Assembly (NCBI GenBank): GCA_028753945.1 | Contig: JAPNXP010000001.1 | Coordinates: forward strand, 5,012,501 to 5,076,500 | DNA length: 64,000 bases | Direction of reading: 5' to 3' | Source: Hexactinellida sp. DTS-2022 | Lineage: Eukaryota > Porifera > Hexactinellida | Shown here: piece after piece, positions 39,927-54,925 of the stretch | Layout of the letters: every line of letters begins with the position of its first letter | Position numbering within the stretch: position 1 is the stretch's first letter | The notes under the pieces: generated by a model | Told to the model about the DNA's origin: nothing | Databases searched by the model: none | The model's input: only the letters and a program-made list of their open reading frames with translations | Translations under genes and position numbers: made by a program

Positions 39927-42143
39927 CTACAAATTAAATATTCTAGATAGTAAAAATACCTGGAGATTGCATTTATACTTCAAAGGAGTTATAGGATCTT
40001 CGTCTGTTAGTCTGCGTTTTACGCCCCTTGCTCCTATATCAATTTGAGCTGCGGTAAGAAATGTTGAGAGTGATTCAGTGCCAGTTGAGCCAGCTGCACT
40101 CAATTGAGAAGTTATTGATGAATACTTGGTAAGAGTATTACTCACTATACTACTGGGTGTGGTAGAAAGAGATTGTGTACTTAGTTGAAGAGATGACGGT
40201 AGCTTGGTACTGGAGATAGGAGTACCAGTACTTAATGGACTGATAACAGAGTTGTTGGTTGGTATAGCAACAGGCGCGGTGGCACTTAGTTGAAAAGATG
40301 ACGGTAGCTTGGTACTGGAGATAGGAGTACCAGTACTTAAAGGATTGATAACATAGTTGTTGGTTGGTATAGCAACAGGCGCGGTGGCACTTAGTTGAAA
40401 AGATGACGGTAGCCTGGTACCGGAGATAGGAGTACCAGTACTTAATGGATTGATAACAGAGTTGTTGGTTGGTGTAGCAACAGGCGCGGTGGCACTTAGT
40501 TGAAAAGATGACGGTAGCCTGGTACCGGAGATAGGAGTACCAGTACTTAAAGGATTGATAACATAGTTGTTGGTTGGTATAGCAACAGGCGCGGTGGCAC
40601 TTAGTTGAAAAGATGACGGTAGCCTGGTACTGGAGATAGGAGTACCAGTACTTAATGGACTGATAACAGTCTTGTTGGTTGGTGTAGCAACAGGCGCGGT
40701 GGCACTTAGTTGAAAAGATGACGGTAGCCTGGTACCGGAGATAGGAGTACCAGTACTTAATGGACTGATAACAGAGTTGTTGGTTGGTGTAGCAACAGGC
40801 GCGGTGGCACTTAGTTGAAAAGATGACGGTAGCCTGGTACCGGAGATAGGAGTACCAGTACTTAATGGACTGATAACAGAGTTGTTGGTTGGTGTAGCAA
40901 CAGGCGCGGTGGCACTTAGTTGAAAAGATGACGGTAGCCTGGTACTGGAGATAGGAGTACCAGTACTTAATAGACTGATAACAGAGTTGTTGGTTGGTAT
41001 AGCAACAGGCGCGGTGGCACTTAGTTGAAAAGATGACGGTAGCCTGGTACCGGAGATAGGAGTACCAGTACTTAATGGACTGATAACAGAGTTGTTGGTT
41101 GGTGTAGCAACAGGTGCGGTGGCACTTAGTTGAAAAGATGACGGTAGCCTATTACTGAAGATAGGAGTACTAGTACTTAATGGACTGATAACAGAGTTGT
41201 TGGTTGGTATAGCAACAGGCGCGGTGGCACTTAGTTGAAAAGATGACGGTAGCCTGGTACCGGAGATAGGAGTACCAGTACTTAATGGACTGATAACAGA
41301 GTTGTTGGTTGGTGTAGCAACAGGTGCGGTGGCACTTAGTTGAAAAGATGACGGTAGCCTAGTGCTGGAGATAGGAGTACCAGTACTTAATGGACTGATA
41401 ACATAGTTGTTGGTTGGTGTAGCAACAGGCGCGGTGGCACTTAGTTGAAAAGATGACGGTAGCCTGGTACTGGAGATAGGAGTACCAGTACTTAATGGAC
41501 TGATAACAGAGTTGTTGGTTGGTATAGCAACAGGCGCGGTGGCACTTAGTTGAAGAGATGACGGTAGCCTATTACTGAAGATAGGAGTACTAGTACTTAA
41601 TGGACTGATAACAGAGTTGTTGGTTGGTGTAGCAACAGGCGCGGGGGTACTTACTCTCTGCTTAACTGGAGGAACAGTTCCAATCCATCCCTTTCCCACC
41701 ACAAAGATGTTTTTAATGGCATCCTTCGGAATTCTACCCTCGAAATCTATCTCTTCATACCTTCTAGCATAGCCCAGCTGCATCCCAACTAAATATTTAG
41801 ACCTCACCTTCTCGTCAGTAAAATTATAAGCAGAGTTAGCAACTCCAGGATTTCTTTCTTTGATATATTTAACGCTTATTTGCACTATTGTGTCTCTACG
41901 TTGTAGGTGAGAATACTGAGATGGACGGTGGGAGTGAGATGTGTCTATCCAATCCCTAGCAGCATTAAAGCTAGCAGTTGTTGAGATAAATTTAGTTGGT
42001 ATCTTCAGACCTTCCTCCACATGGTGAGAAATTTTGTGATTAGAATTAGGATCCTTACATACAATGTCCTTATAAGGGTTTTCATCTGGTCTCAAAAGTC
42101 TGTAAACAAACTCTTCTTTGTAATTTTCTAGACCTCTGCTCAT
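39927..42143 (-). CDS. 738-residue protein: ART-like N-terminal domain plus 35-residue repeats
   Basis: Residues 1-165 form a compact domain with EEFVYRLLRPDENPYKDIVC, TKFISTTASFNAARDWID and a later YEEIDFEGRIPKDAI. The order R, F-STT, E-x-DFEG resembles the R-S-E layout of ADP-ribosyltransferase-like folds such as DUF7587-type domains (inference, not proven). Residues about 175-650 are some 13-14 tandem 35-residue repeats (TPISSTRLPSSFQLSATAP and variants), rich in Ser, Thr, Pro and Ala and probably disordered. The tail contains GVKRRLTDEDPITPLKYKC. The frame ends shortly after a possible splice donor (CAG|GTATTT near 39961), so the last ten codons may be intron. There is no signal peptide or membrane segment. 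The intact frame argues for a real gene. Confidence 0.68.
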   Translation of the reverse strand: MSRGLENYKEEFVYRLLRPDENPYKDIVCKDPNSNHKISHHVEEGLKIPTKFISTTASFNAARDWIDTSHSHRPSQYSHLQRRDTIVQISVKYIKERNPGVANSAYNFTDEKVRSKYLVGMQLGYARRYEEIDFEGRIPKDAIKNIFVVGKGWIGTVPPVKQRVSTPAPVATPTNNSVISPLSTSTPIFSNRLPSSLQLSATAPVAIPTNNSVISPLSTGTPISSTRLPSSFQLSATAPVATPTNNYVISPLSTGTPISSTRLPSSFQLSATAPVATPTNNSVISPLSTGTPISGTRLPSSFQLSATAPVAIPTNNSVISPLSTSTPIFSNRLPSSFQLSATAPVATPTNNSVISPLSTGTPISGTRLPSSFQLSATAPVAIPTNNSVISLLSTGTPISSTRLPSSFQLSATAPVATPTNNSVISPLSTGTPISGTRLPSSFQLSATAPVATPTNNSVISPLSTGTPISGTRLPSSFQLSATAPVATPTNKTVISPLSTGTPISSTRLPSSFQLSATAPVAIPTNNYVINPLSTGTPISGTRLPSSFQLSATAPVATPTNNSVINPLSTGTPISGTRLPSSFQLSATAPVAIPTNNYVINPLSTGTPISSTKLPSSFQLSATAPVAIPTNNSVISPLSTGTPISSTKLPSSLQLSTQSLSTTPSSIVSNTLTKYSSITSQLSAAGSTGTESLSTFLTAAQIDIGARGVKRRLTDEDPITPLKYKCNLQVFLLSRIFNL
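40195..41640 (-). repeat. 105-bp coding minisatellite
   Basis: About 13-14 units of 105 bp, nearly identical in DNA (for example gttgttggttggtatagcaa and gatgacggtagcctggtac), encode the 35-residue repeats. The few differences are mixed among units, which indicates recent homogenisation. Confidence 0.92.
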
Positions 42144-42696
42144 TAATCCTAGATTTGAACAAATAATATTATTTCAACTTAATTTACTATGATAGTTGGG
42201 TGTTAAATTCAACGGTAATTTCCAAGGGGATTATTTTGTATTAAAGACTATTTCAAAATTGTTTGTATAAAGTCCTGCTTTACAATATACCCTACTTATT
42301 TGGTTAAAATACAATATTTATCTTGAACATTTCATGAATTTTCCATTTATCCATGCTTCCATTAGCAATTCTGATTCTTTTTCAAAATTTTTATCATGAC
42401 ATCATTTGCAAAAAAATCCGTACAAATTAGCGTATCTTCCACCTACAAAATGTTCCGATTCCTTTACTTCCAATAATTATAAACCAGCATTCCGTATATT
42501 GTGATAAAAACATTTACTTGTGAAATATGGCAGGAGTAAAAGCCACGAATGTATGTGTGGTTCTGATACAAAATTTATAGTCAATACTAGTTATCAAAAC
42601 ATATTCTGGGAACACTTATATTAACTTGTATTTGAATAGTATCGGATATAAGAACAAATTTCTCTACATAGTGCAGCGGCACAACTATACAATTGT

Positions 42697-47263: not shown

Positions 47264-48370
47264 ATTATTAAATCTCGATTGTTGTTTGTTTGTGTGTGTG
47301 TGTGTGTGTGTATTTGTTTGTCCGGATTGTATTAAAGTGATGGGGGAATACAAACCGCATTTATATATGAGATATAAAATAAGTTCCAACGTTATAATAG
47401 GTGAACAAATGTTATAATAAGTAAACAAGTATTCTGAACACGAATTTCGCGGTTATAATTTTCTAATATGAATATTTGTTGTTGTTGTTTACACAAAATA
47501 GGTAAACAAATTAATGAAAATTCAAAATCAACCTAGAAGTTAGCTTCCAACGGGTATAATAAGTAAACAAGTATTCTGAACACGAATTTCGCGGTTATAA
47601 TTTTCTAATATGAATATTTGTTGTTGTTGTTTACACAAAATAGGTAAACAAATTAATGAAAATTCAAAATCAACCTAGAAGTTAGCTTTCAACAAGTATT
47701 ATAGGTAAACAAGTATGCTGAACACGATTTTCGCCGTTAAAATTTTCTAATATGAATATTTGTTGTTGTTGTTCACACAAAATAGGTAAACAAATTAATG
47801 AAAATTCAAAATCAACCTAGAAGTTAGCTTTCAACGGTTATTATAGGTAAACAAGTATGCTGAACACGAATTTCGCGTTTATAAATTTCTCATATTAATA
47901 TTTGTTGTTGTTGTTTACACAAAATAGGTAAACAAATTAATGAAAATTTAAAATCAACCTAGAAGTTAGCTCTCAACGGGGATTATAAGTAAACAATTAT
48001 GCTGAACACGATTTTCGCCTATAAAATTTTCTAATATGAATATTTGTTGTTGTTGTTTACACAAAATAGGTAAACAAAATAATTAAAATTCAAAATCAAC
48101 CTAGAAGTTAGCTTTTAATGGGTAATATAGGTACAAGTGTGCTGAACACGAATTTCGCATTTATAAAATTCTAATATGAGTATTTGTTGTTGTTGTTGTT
48201 TACACAAATAGCCTGAAATAGGTAAACAAATTAAAGAAAATTCAAAATCATAACGTCCCTTTCTACCATTTCCATGGTAGAAAATGTGGGGAGTAAGGCC
48301 GCACAGCGGCCGTTAACTTGAGGTGTGTAGCACCGATCTGTCGCAAAGCTACCGAGACCGAAGGGCTCGT
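47264..48370 (+). mobile_element. Helitron-like element with ~145-bp minisatellite
   Basis: It begins attattaaatctcgattgtt directly after the 3' end of the preceding element and ends gggctcgt. About six internal repeat units match those of 16303-17952, and the right-end hairpin cluster is the same. The head-to-tail junction with the previous element is unusual. Confidence 0.72.
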
Positions 48371-48986
48371 TATAGTGAAATTTAATTTTGATTCATAATT
48401 ATTGCAATTAATTGAACTTAATTTATTTTGCTGTACATAATGATGGTGCTAAATTATTAATCATTTAATAATTATTTGTACTAATTTGGAAATAGCATTA
48501 ATCTCAGAGGTGATACAAAATAGAAACAAACTTCCAATGGACAATTGTTCCTTATGCTACGTAACACCTCTATAAATGGGTGTTGACACCTTGAGGTGAT
48601 AATTTTTTAAATGTGTTTTTACAATTTTGTGAATTATATAATTCGAATGGGTTGGTTGGTGTTGGATGATCACCCAACACACACACACATCAAAAATGCT
48701 GAGTCATCACCTATTATATTCTACTGAAACTTGAATATCTCTAAAATGAGGTGAGCTAAATGGAAACTTCCCCCACTCTAAGGGCCGTTGCCTTCTGAAA
48801 CACCTTTTAGAAATATTTAACACCTTCATAGTGATGATGGCATGGCGAAAAAAATCCAAAATTGTAGCTTTGCGGCCTGTGCCGACAGCATTTTCCTTGG
48901 AGGCACTATCAGTTACCCAACCAGTAGCCACGAAAAGATAGTGCACCAAAGGTAAATGCTTCGGCACAGCTGCAATTTTGGATTTT
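48371..48986 (-). repeat. R1 dispersed copy, reverse, with variant hairpin
   Basis: The hairpin at 48848-48985 is followed on the minus strand by R1 sequence. The apex is of the ttttcctt/aaggtaaa type with some unpaired bases, and a short insertion (tttgcggcc) lies in one arm. Confidence 0.75.
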
Positions 48987-49904: not shown

Positions 49905-50329
49905 GCGGTATGTGAAGTTAGTTGAATTGTACAGTAATTTTATTGATAAGAACAGAGAGTAGGTATTCGAGGCGTAATTTCGGCCCAATGAAATGGATAA
50001 ATTCCTGTTATTGATGCTGCAGTTTTCTGAGAGAGGAATCGCATTAAAAGAGGGAGCATTGAGGCAGTAGTACTCAAGGTTAGATTCATTGGTTGAGTTT
50101 TGTGAAATTGGTATAGTTTTAGAGACTGGAATAGATACTTATATATTACGAGTATCCAAACGCTTGTGATGAGACATCGCATGTACCAAAGTTCAACAAT
50201 TTCAACAATTCTTTTCCATATCGGGAATTTTGAAATCTGTTGCAGATGACTTTAAATGATTCTCACTGTGGTGAGCATGAGACACCGTAAATGTATCTCA
50301 CACCCACCGGGATACGACATGTGGTGGAA

Positions 50330-50379
50330 GTGGTTTAGTCCTATCACAAGGACTCATCAGGAGGGTAACCCTCGACCAC
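50330..50379 (-). ncRNA. hammerhead ribozyme fold, G12 changed
   Basis: Minus strand, in order: stem III strand GTGGT, C17 (50374, cleavage after it), stem I GAGGG-TTA-CCCTC, core CTGATGA (50360-50354), stem II GTCCT-TGTGAT-AGGAC, then TAA and the stem III partner ACCAC whose first A is A15.1. All three stems are perfectly paired (5 bp each), and every core base matches the hammerhead consensus except position 12, which is T (50337) instead of the catalytic G. Stem III is the open helix, so the topology is type III. The fold is complete, but the G12 change probably abolishes or strongly reduces cleavage. The surrounding 50240-50510 is GC-richer than its neighbours and may be a retroelement remnant. 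Two or more of these bases matching by chance is very unlikely. Confidence 0.8.
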
Positions 50380-50585
50380 ACTACAACTGGTCTACTCCAG
50401 TTCTAGTTACCAGTGAGCCATGCCGTTCTCCAACCACAGGTACTAAGCACAACTCAGTGAACTCACCTACACTAGGACCCCTCTAGTGCACTCCTGTCAG
50501 CCCGTCATCACATCACTTTGTTTGAAATATTTTTCTGCTTTCTTCTTTTGAAATTTTATCCACCATCTAGGAATATATCTATACT

Positions 50586-51370: not shown

Positions 51371-51697
51371 TAGAACACGAGCCCTTCGGTCTCGGTCGCT
51401 TTGCAACAGATCGGTGCTACGCACCTAAAGTTAACGGCCGCTGTGCGGCCTTACTCTTCACCCTTTCTGCCATGGAAAATGGTAGAAAGGGACGTTATAT
51501 ACATCCCTTTATAAGATTTCCTTAGTTTTAACTTGTTTTTCATACTCTAAATTTAGAAATGCGAAATTCGTGTTCAGCATACTTTTGTTTACCTATAATA
51601 CCCAATGAAAGCTAACTTCTAGGTTGATTTGAATTTCATTAATTTGTTTACCTATTTTGTGTAAACAACAACAATAAATATTCATATTAGAAAATTT

Positions 51698-52617
51698 CTA
51701 TGTTGTTTAATACGCGTATTGCGTATAATACGTATTATACGTGATACGCTATCCATCAGCACGTATTAACGCTAATCTATGATCAACCAGGAACGTTTTC
51801 GAAGTAATTTAGTAAAGCATATTTATAAATCTATATTATTAAATCTCGATTGTTGTGTGTTGTTTGTGTGTTTGTTTGTCCGGATTGTATTAAAGTGATG
51901 GGGGAATAGAAACTGCATTTATATATGAGATATAAAGTAACTTTTGAATGTTATAGTGGGTAAACAAATGTTATAATAGGTAAACAAGTATGCTGAATTC
52001 GAATTTCGCATTTATAAATTTGTAATATGAATATTTGTTGTTGTTGTTTACACAAATAGGTAAACAAATTAATGAAAATTCAAAATCGACCTAGAAGTTA
52101 GCTTTCAACGAGTATTATAGGTAAACAAGAATGCTGAACACGAATTTCGCGTTTATAAATTTATAATTCTGTATTAATATTTGTTGTTGTTGTTTACACA
52201 AAATAGGTAAACAAATTAATGAAAATTCAAAATCAACCTAGAAGTTAGCTTTCAACGGGTATTAAAGTATATAACACTTACAAATATTACTAACTATGTA
52301 ATCAATTGTTTAGTTAGGAGTAAGGCCGCGTAGCGGCCGTTAACTTGAGGTGCGTAGCACCGATCTGTCGCAAAGCGACCGAGACCGAAAGGCTCGTATT
52401 ATTGTAAATACAAGATTCTAGCAAATAATCAAATTTAACTATACAGACTATACTTTGAGTCGATTAACAATAAAATAATAACGATTAAACAGAAAGTTGT
52501 TCAAAGGAAATTTCATGAGCTCGATATTATAAGTAAGGTATACGTATAATTAATACGTATTACATTATACGTATTAAACGTAATACGTATCCATTAAAAG
52601 ACGTATTAAACAACTTA
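51698..52617. mobile_element. TIR element with tacg repeats, itself containing a Helitron-like copy
   Basis: The ends gttgtttaatacgcg and gacgtattaaacaac are inverted. The flanks gaaaattt and ggaaattt form an imperfect 8-bp duplication, which suggests hAT. Subterminal cgtataatacgtatta motifs occur at both ends. Confidence 0.65.
51831..52397 (+). mobile_element. Helitron-like element, short copy
   Basis: It runs from ctatattattaaatctcg to aggctcgt, with only about two minisatellite units. The flanks are aaat and attattg, with no duplication. It lies inside the TIR element at 51698-52617. Confidence 0.75.
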
Positions 52618-54630: not shown

Positions 54631-54925
54631 ACGAGCCCTTCGTTCTCGTCGCTTTGCGACGGATAACTAAACACTACGCAGGTATCGCTTTTTTCAACAA
54701 ACAATAAATATTTACAGTAAAATTTTTACAATTGAATTCGTAATCAGCTGTTTGTTTACCTTATCTAACATTTTGAAGTTAGTCTCTAGGTTCATTAATT
54801 TTGAATTTGAATTTTTTACCTATTTTTTGTCAACAACAACAATAAATATTCATATTAGAAGTCTAGAAATGCGAAATTCGTAATCACCATACTTGTTCAC
54901 CTACTGTATAATAACATTTCAAAGT
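54631..54925 (-). mobile_element. Helitron-like 3' fragment, reverse
   Basis: acgagcccttcgttctcgtc followed by gctttgcgacgga and two partial minisatellite units (caacaacaacaataaatatt) represents a diverged, truncated copy. Confidence 0.6.

Follow-up and report, generated by a model that had tools for sequence, protein, structure and literature searches.

The window, a 64-kb stretch of DNA from the animal Hexactinellida sp. DTS-2022, contains a long open frame on its minus strand (39927–42173; 748 amino acids, with 13 to 14 tandem Ser/Thr/Pro-rich units of about 34 residues) and a 142-bp tandem repeat array (47264–48273), of which further direct or inverted copies lie near 51585–52407 and 54807–54908. 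A G+C-rich block adjoining the array is repeated at 48290–48380 and 52317–52407. At 50328–50381 the minus strand matches the hammerhead ribozyme family Hammerhead_3 (Rfam RF00008) along the full length of the model (positions 1–54), scoring 53.3 bits against a gathering cut-off of 48.5 (E value 5.7e-9), and no other Rfam family passes threshold within the 64-kb window. An earlier note had proposed a type III hammerhead here from the letters alone; this match above the curated score, with stem III as the open helix, bears out both the ribozyme and its topology. The features of the motif are as follows.

50328 to 50381, minus strand: type III hammerhead ribozyme motif (RF00008), from the Rfam match and the Rfam alignment
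50354 to 50360, minus strand: conserved core CUGAUGA (C3 to A9), from the sequence and the Rfam alignment
50373 to 50374, minus strand: predicted cleavage site, between C17 (50374) and 50373, from GUC in the sequence and the Rfam alignment
50337, minus strand: position 12, U here and G in all 31 other aligned copies

The three helices, CUGAUGA core and GUC site that the earlier note described are all seen in the sequence and the Rfam alignment. Stem I pairs GAGGG with CCCUC and stem II pairs GUCCU with AGGAC, as read from the same two sources, and stem III consists of five Watson–Crick pairs, a U–U mismatch and a G–U pair. The predicted minimum-energy fold of the motif contains all three helices at −18.1 kcal/mol (z −2.10), and 6 of 200 shuffled sequences fold as well or better. 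The fold had been called perfect; its three helices are predicted, and the mismatch and G–U pair of stem III make the word slightly generous. After stem II the motif reads U(50337)AA in place of the consensus GAA, confirming the U that had been noted at position 12, so that the window copy departs from the full catalytic core, which includes G12. The predicted fold also pairs A9 with U12, extending stem II into the core.

The motif lies inside a 246-bp insertion with TGTG...CACA ends, flanked by a 4-bp target duplication.

50267 to 50512, minus strand: 246-bp unit best read as a solo long terminal repeat (LTR), ends TGTGATGACGGG...CTCACCACA, from 32 copies that cover it almost fully and a paralogous empty site
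50513 to 50516, minus strand: target-site duplication GTGA on the 5′ side of the element, from flank comparison and the paralogous site
50263 to 50266, minus strand: target-site duplication GTGA on the 3′ side of the element, from flank comparison and the paralogous site
50432, minus strand: private substitution, T on the minus strand where all 31 other copies have A, from the alignment of 32 copies
50457 to 50465, minus strand: 9-nt insertion private to the window copy, from the alignment of 32 copies

Thirty-two copies, the window's included, span this unit nearly whole in the genome DNA examined. A paralogous place (L095) has no insertion: aligned across the joined flanks, it carries a single GTGG where the window has GTGA–element–GTGA, with similarity that begins about 80 bases upstream of the insertion and continues through the downstream flank compared. 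An exact 4-bp repeat adjoins the TGTG...CACA unit in 15 of the 32 window-family copies; the remaining 17 have no exact repeat, and some of them are located in dimers or palindromes. We read the insertion as most likely a solo LTR, belonging to an LTR-type mobile element with several families, a context that a single window cannot reveal. The window copy is probably young, and it should be inert because it has neither a partner LTR nor G12. Two further window-family copies, at C14:4210856 (L060) and C15:2963813 (L059), lie on two contigs in matching flanking sequence; segmental duplication therefore accounts for part of the copy number.

G12 has been described as the general base of the hammerhead (PMC6155905), and an approximately million-fold loss was measured for G12A in a full-length hammerhead (PMC2553840). 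We infer, rather than read from a measurement, a loss of catalysis through U12, because the available text of the latter paper names neither G12U nor a pyrimidine. The core pattern CTGATGAGTC(5-14)GAC-x-AAAC, in which base x at position 12 is free, was scanned over the 112.4-Mb host genome and occurs at 215 places, with G at 211 and another base at 4 (U at 3, the window among them, and A at 1); the reversed pattern gives no place in either genome scan (G12 and non-G12). With a fixed-length core pattern and at most one mismatch the genomic places rise to 284, again with none for the reversed control. Position 12 is G in 89, U in 3 and A in 1 of the 93 ribozyme copies read in context, a set that is a minority of the genomic copies (individual positions were available for 100 of the 211 G12 places), and 82 of the 93 have every core feature checked intact; the set was found by a pattern allowing two substitutions in 28 bases, which leaves worse-decayed copies uncounted.

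Within the window family U12 is private to the window copy, the other 31 of the 32 aligned copies having G. The other three non-G12 copies in the genome resemble the window unit only inside the ribozyme, and two of them carry further damage. The earlier note had left two explanations standing, recent decay and a ribozyme kept as a structural element. That selection holds the U12 motif as an inactive structural element would fit the otherwise intact fold and the score above the Rfam cut-off, and is extremely improbable: the private status of U12 among 32 copies and a non-G base at 4 of 215 places together leave no visible selection for an inactive fold, and the character of the other three non-G12 copies also counts against it. 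Change across the LTR points the same way. Twenty-nine close copies depart from the majority at 11 of 1,566 bases inside the motif and at 106 of 5,312 outside (Fisher p 0.0002, a rough value given that shared subfamily differences enter both counts), and a hammerhead less changed than the rest of its LTR suggests that selection acts on the active motif at the family level. We therefore reject the structural-element reading on the private nature of U12, which supports recent decay. As far as the copies can be compared, U12 is the ordinary decay of one copy and no preserved structural variant.

Conservation of the ribozyme extends well beyond the window family. Genome-wide there are at least 68 RF00008 matches, at least 64 of them over the cut-off, with 68 of 12,319 candidates scored and the window copy not among the 68; the whole-genome search that the earlier note had suggested is thus positive. 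Among nine LTR representatives (36 pairs; the representatives are partly related, and two of the pairs are close), identity is 84% in the hammerhead, 37% in the part before it and 56% in the part after it, against 31%, 27% and 28%, respectively, in shuffled controls (15 pairs). Across 17 stem pairs in 50 distinct copies, 90.5% of the 850 cells are paired. Seven of the 17 pairs have changed on both sides, compared with a shuffled mean of 4.0; this level is reached by 2 of 500 shuffles, and slid structures give 0 to 3. The alignment holds 50 of 55 distinct ribozymes, the other five being omitted as out of register through indels or replaced sequence in or adjoining stem I. A model match and related copies with stem covariation, either of which the earlier note would have counted against its claim if missing, are thus both present. 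Judged from these alignments, the conservation seen in the element families is that of a working hammerhead.

The type III hammerhead is located inside the LTR in the window family and in other families alike, and several places retain more than one LTR. Two direct LTRs surround a short internal region at L082, L096, L039 and L074, and at all of these but L074 the 5′ copy is the shorter. The insertions L082 and L096 belong to the same family; each is 684 bp in total, with direct repeats starting 385 bp apart and a hammerhead in each repeat, and their target duplications are CTAC and ATAG, respectively. L039 is a complete copy of the window family (548 bp, target duplication AAAC) whose first ribozyme has a mutated core. 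At L074 full-length repeats 486 bp apart flank the internal region, and this family sits in a composite of 2,184 bp whose target duplication is CTAT. In one direct dimer the junction is short and both units share a single target duplication, CTCC; a C16 element without its 3′ end has no outer 4-bp repeat. Eleven multi-LTR structures were chosen by eye, and an exact 4-bp repeat bounds 9 of them (8 before the start of L062 was redefined). Among the 93 hammerhead copies, 32 lie in a TGT...ACA unit that an exact 4-bp repeat flanks, a few of these being visibly chance matches, compared with 2 to 7 in eight shifted controls; there is no excess of 3-, 5- or 6-bp flanking repeats in the same set.

A purine tract, AAGGG...TGA, precedes all six 3′ LTRs examined; of the 14 bases before the LTR, 11 or 12 are purines, and the three families that have the tract in common share little else. 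One LTR start lies 223 to 486 bp from the next, so there is hardly any space for coding sequence. Searches with one internal stretch from each of three families gave 5, 6 and 18 places; many were pieces and few were full elements, and most ribozymes are for that reason probably solo LTRs. The elements have the features of short non-autonomous LTR retrotransposons. Variants of GGCAGTACG and CTGGTAAC recur in the 5′ part of otherwise dissimilar LTR families (L003, L024, L027, L071, L074 and L082).

Beyond the LTR end, where a primer-binding site would be expected, none was identified, and a hairpin stands there instead. It has 14 or more pairs, and the final seven LTR bases form part of its stem (as in CATAACATAATAAC...GTTATTATGTTATG). 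All five versions of it fold, each with a different sequence. At L074 and L071 internal sequence follows the hairpin, which therefore belongs to the element; the other three hairpins are the hinge of a tail-to-tail LTR pair, and their outer pairing could stem from the fold-back itself. A pattern joining LTR end and hairpin start gives 19 matches, a weak result when taken alone against 9 for the reversed control. L074 and L071 are also the only places with internal sequence after a full LTR end, and there the hairpin does not start with TGG; over 78 LTR-end motifs, solo copies included, TGG occurs within the next 8 bases at 8. The plant tRNA-Met primer-binding motif is TGGTATCAG. It occurs once in the genome DNA examined, away from any LTR end, and that DNA holds no host tRNA for comparison. 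Downstream of the hairpin region, the internal regions of L071, L074 and L082 resemble one another briefly at and around CTGGACTCGCGAGC (in L074, CTGGACTGCGCG), which is possibly a dimerisation or primer-binding signal.

Tail-to-tail LTR–hairpin–LTR copies place the 5′ ends of their LTRs outside, and exact target duplications bound such copies on C14 (CGTA), on C2 (ATAT) and at L062 (TGAA). Because of these duplications, the palindromic DNA probably existed before integration. One of the four palindromes tested, at C1:12100898, has no outer repeat, and other tail-to-tail pairs, such as L090 and L043, are truncated on one side. A second departure from a plain LTR layout concerns the 5′ repeat, which ends soon after the hammerhead in L082 and L096 and in the window-family copies with an internal region.

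Another reading of the 237–246-bp units would be a MITE-like DNA transposon carrying a hammerhead by chance. A terminal-inverted-repeat element could equally have the 4-bp target duplications and the imperfect ends TGTGATG/CACCACA, and most window-family copies seen are single units. Such a transposon does not account for complete copies with two direct repeats and an internal region ending in a purine tract before the second repeat, an arrangement found in three families with no other evident similarity, nor for a direct dimer and palindromes that each have one outer target duplication. On these grounds we reject the DNA-transposon reading, which we consider quite unlikely. An unusually arranged non-LTR animal retrozyme, as in coral, mussel and axolotl, is a very unlikely source of the units: it would match them in size, at about 170–400 nt (PMC11722881), and in being short and without a coding region, whereas the known ones are described as type I, without LTRs, primer-binding site (PBS) or polypurine tract (PPT) (PMC7229834, PMC7761336). 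The elements here have a type III hammerhead, LTRs and a purine tract, and their target duplications are exact and 4 bp long; such duplications, together with the TG...CA ends, count against a non-LTR origin; the type III hammerhead, LTRs and purine tract led us to reject it. A Hammerhead_1 search of the genome gave no matches, and no match to its positive control either.

We conclude that the window motif is very probably the decayed ribozyme of a solo LTR, left by a multi-family non-coding LTR-type element that works like the LTR retrozymes of plants. The LTR architecture, ribozymes, target duplications, purine tract, and tandem and palindromic insertions are read directly from the sequence; the steps that would connect them are inferred. 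The element would be transcribed, its transcript cut at the hammerheads of both LTRs and the unit between the two cuts closed into a circle. A reverse transcriptase supplied in trans by a helper would copy the circle, and the helper's integrase would insert the copied DNA. The palindromes suggest that hairpin-ended DNA may fold back and prime on itself. Five expected circular units of 238–486 nt, one of which (L039) has the mutated core in its first ribozyme, are predicted to be 66–70% paired and more stable than shuffled sequences (z −1.8 to −6.6). These circular folds mostly favour other pairings over the hammerhead helices.

Some copies have open frames nearby that match a zinc knuckle, an integrase H2C2 domain, RVT_1 (29.8 bits against a cut-off of 29.6) and a TRAF zinc finger. 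The first three indicate that LTR-kind retrotransposons exist in the genome, and we read those near the copies as Ty3/gypsy. The TRAF zinc finger, with seven Ets matches in the genome that all pass the cut-off, indicates an animal host, Ets being a family not known outside animals; a Wnt search gave no match, and none to its positive control. No autonomous partner with matching ends was found among the open frames near copies. One open frame near L060 and L059 looks integrase-like by eye and has no Pfam match.

The two families whose 5′ repeat lacks the part after the hammerhead argue against a simple LTR or circular-template cycle, which would not regenerate such a repeat. As a guess, what is missing might come from a donor, possibly through a template switch at the common ribozyme stretch. 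A more specific scheme, which we put forward tentatively and think somewhat doubtful, is that these are animal LTR retrozymes of type III in which a hairpin at the LTR/internal junction would prime reverse transcription in place of a tRNA, the hammerhead would serve as the strand-transfer stretch, and fold-back of hairpin-ended DNA would yield palindromes that integrate whole.

The retrozyme literature separates plant LTR retrozymes, with type III hammerheads, from animal non-LTR retrozymes, with type I (PMC4918200, PMC11722881, PMC7229834, PMC7761336). The earlier note's remark that type I is the usual form in animal retroelements agrees with this literature (PMC7229834, PMC7761336, PMC3088659). 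Plant LTR retrozymes are short non-coding elements with a type III hammerhead in their LTRs (Cervera et al. 2016, PMC4918200; reviewed in PMC11722881). The elements described here resemble those of flowering plants in these respects and in their 4-bp target duplications, purine tract, solo LTRs, tandem copies and families with little in common apart from their hammerhead and ends (PMC4918200, PMC11722881). They differ in having an animal host, in LTR representatives of 200–330 bp, in the hairpin of 14 or more pairs at an LTR end with no identified primer-binding site, and in the shorter 5′ repeats of two families and the palindromic copies bounded by target duplications. Because the plant-type tRNA-Met binding site was not found and circular RNA is only predicted here, we file the elements as LTR-retrozyme-like, a placement made on sequence, and not as strict members.

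Other known systems share single traits with these elements. Non-LTR metazoan retrozymes have in common with them an animal host, short hammerhead repeats, tandem copies and a stable folded unit, and differ in their type I hammerheads, in the absence of LTRs, PBS and PPT, and in target duplications that, when present, are larger (PMC7229834, PMC7761336). The TRIM elements Helenus and Ajax are likewise short non-autonomous LTR elements, with 4-bp target duplications in animal Helenus; they carry tRNA-like or 5S-like sequences in their LTRs, and the available text describes no hammerhead in them (Kojima 2024, PMC10886601). The hammerheads of Drosophila pseudoobscura and other flies, and those of HDV-like RNAs of toad and termite, are type III in animals, with longer helices and pseudoknotted loops and, in the available text, no placement in LTR elements (PMC7936874). 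The 23-base stretch GAGGGTTACCCTCCTGATGAGTC has no exact match in viral contigs and none in prokaryotic contigs, sets from which records near the window's genome may be excluded. In the open-licence literature, as far as its available text extends, we found no report of an animal LTR retrozyme with type III hammerheads; a description of the fly type III motifs was announced as in preparation (PMC7936874). A large set of type III LTR elements with near-identical copies in an animal would break the division between plant and animal retrozymes and would give a second case, independent or transferred, of ribozymes incorporated into LTRs. Copies that naturally have or lack G12, together with the palindromic insertions, would offer material for asking what ribozyme cleavage and circular RNA contribute to reverse transcription.
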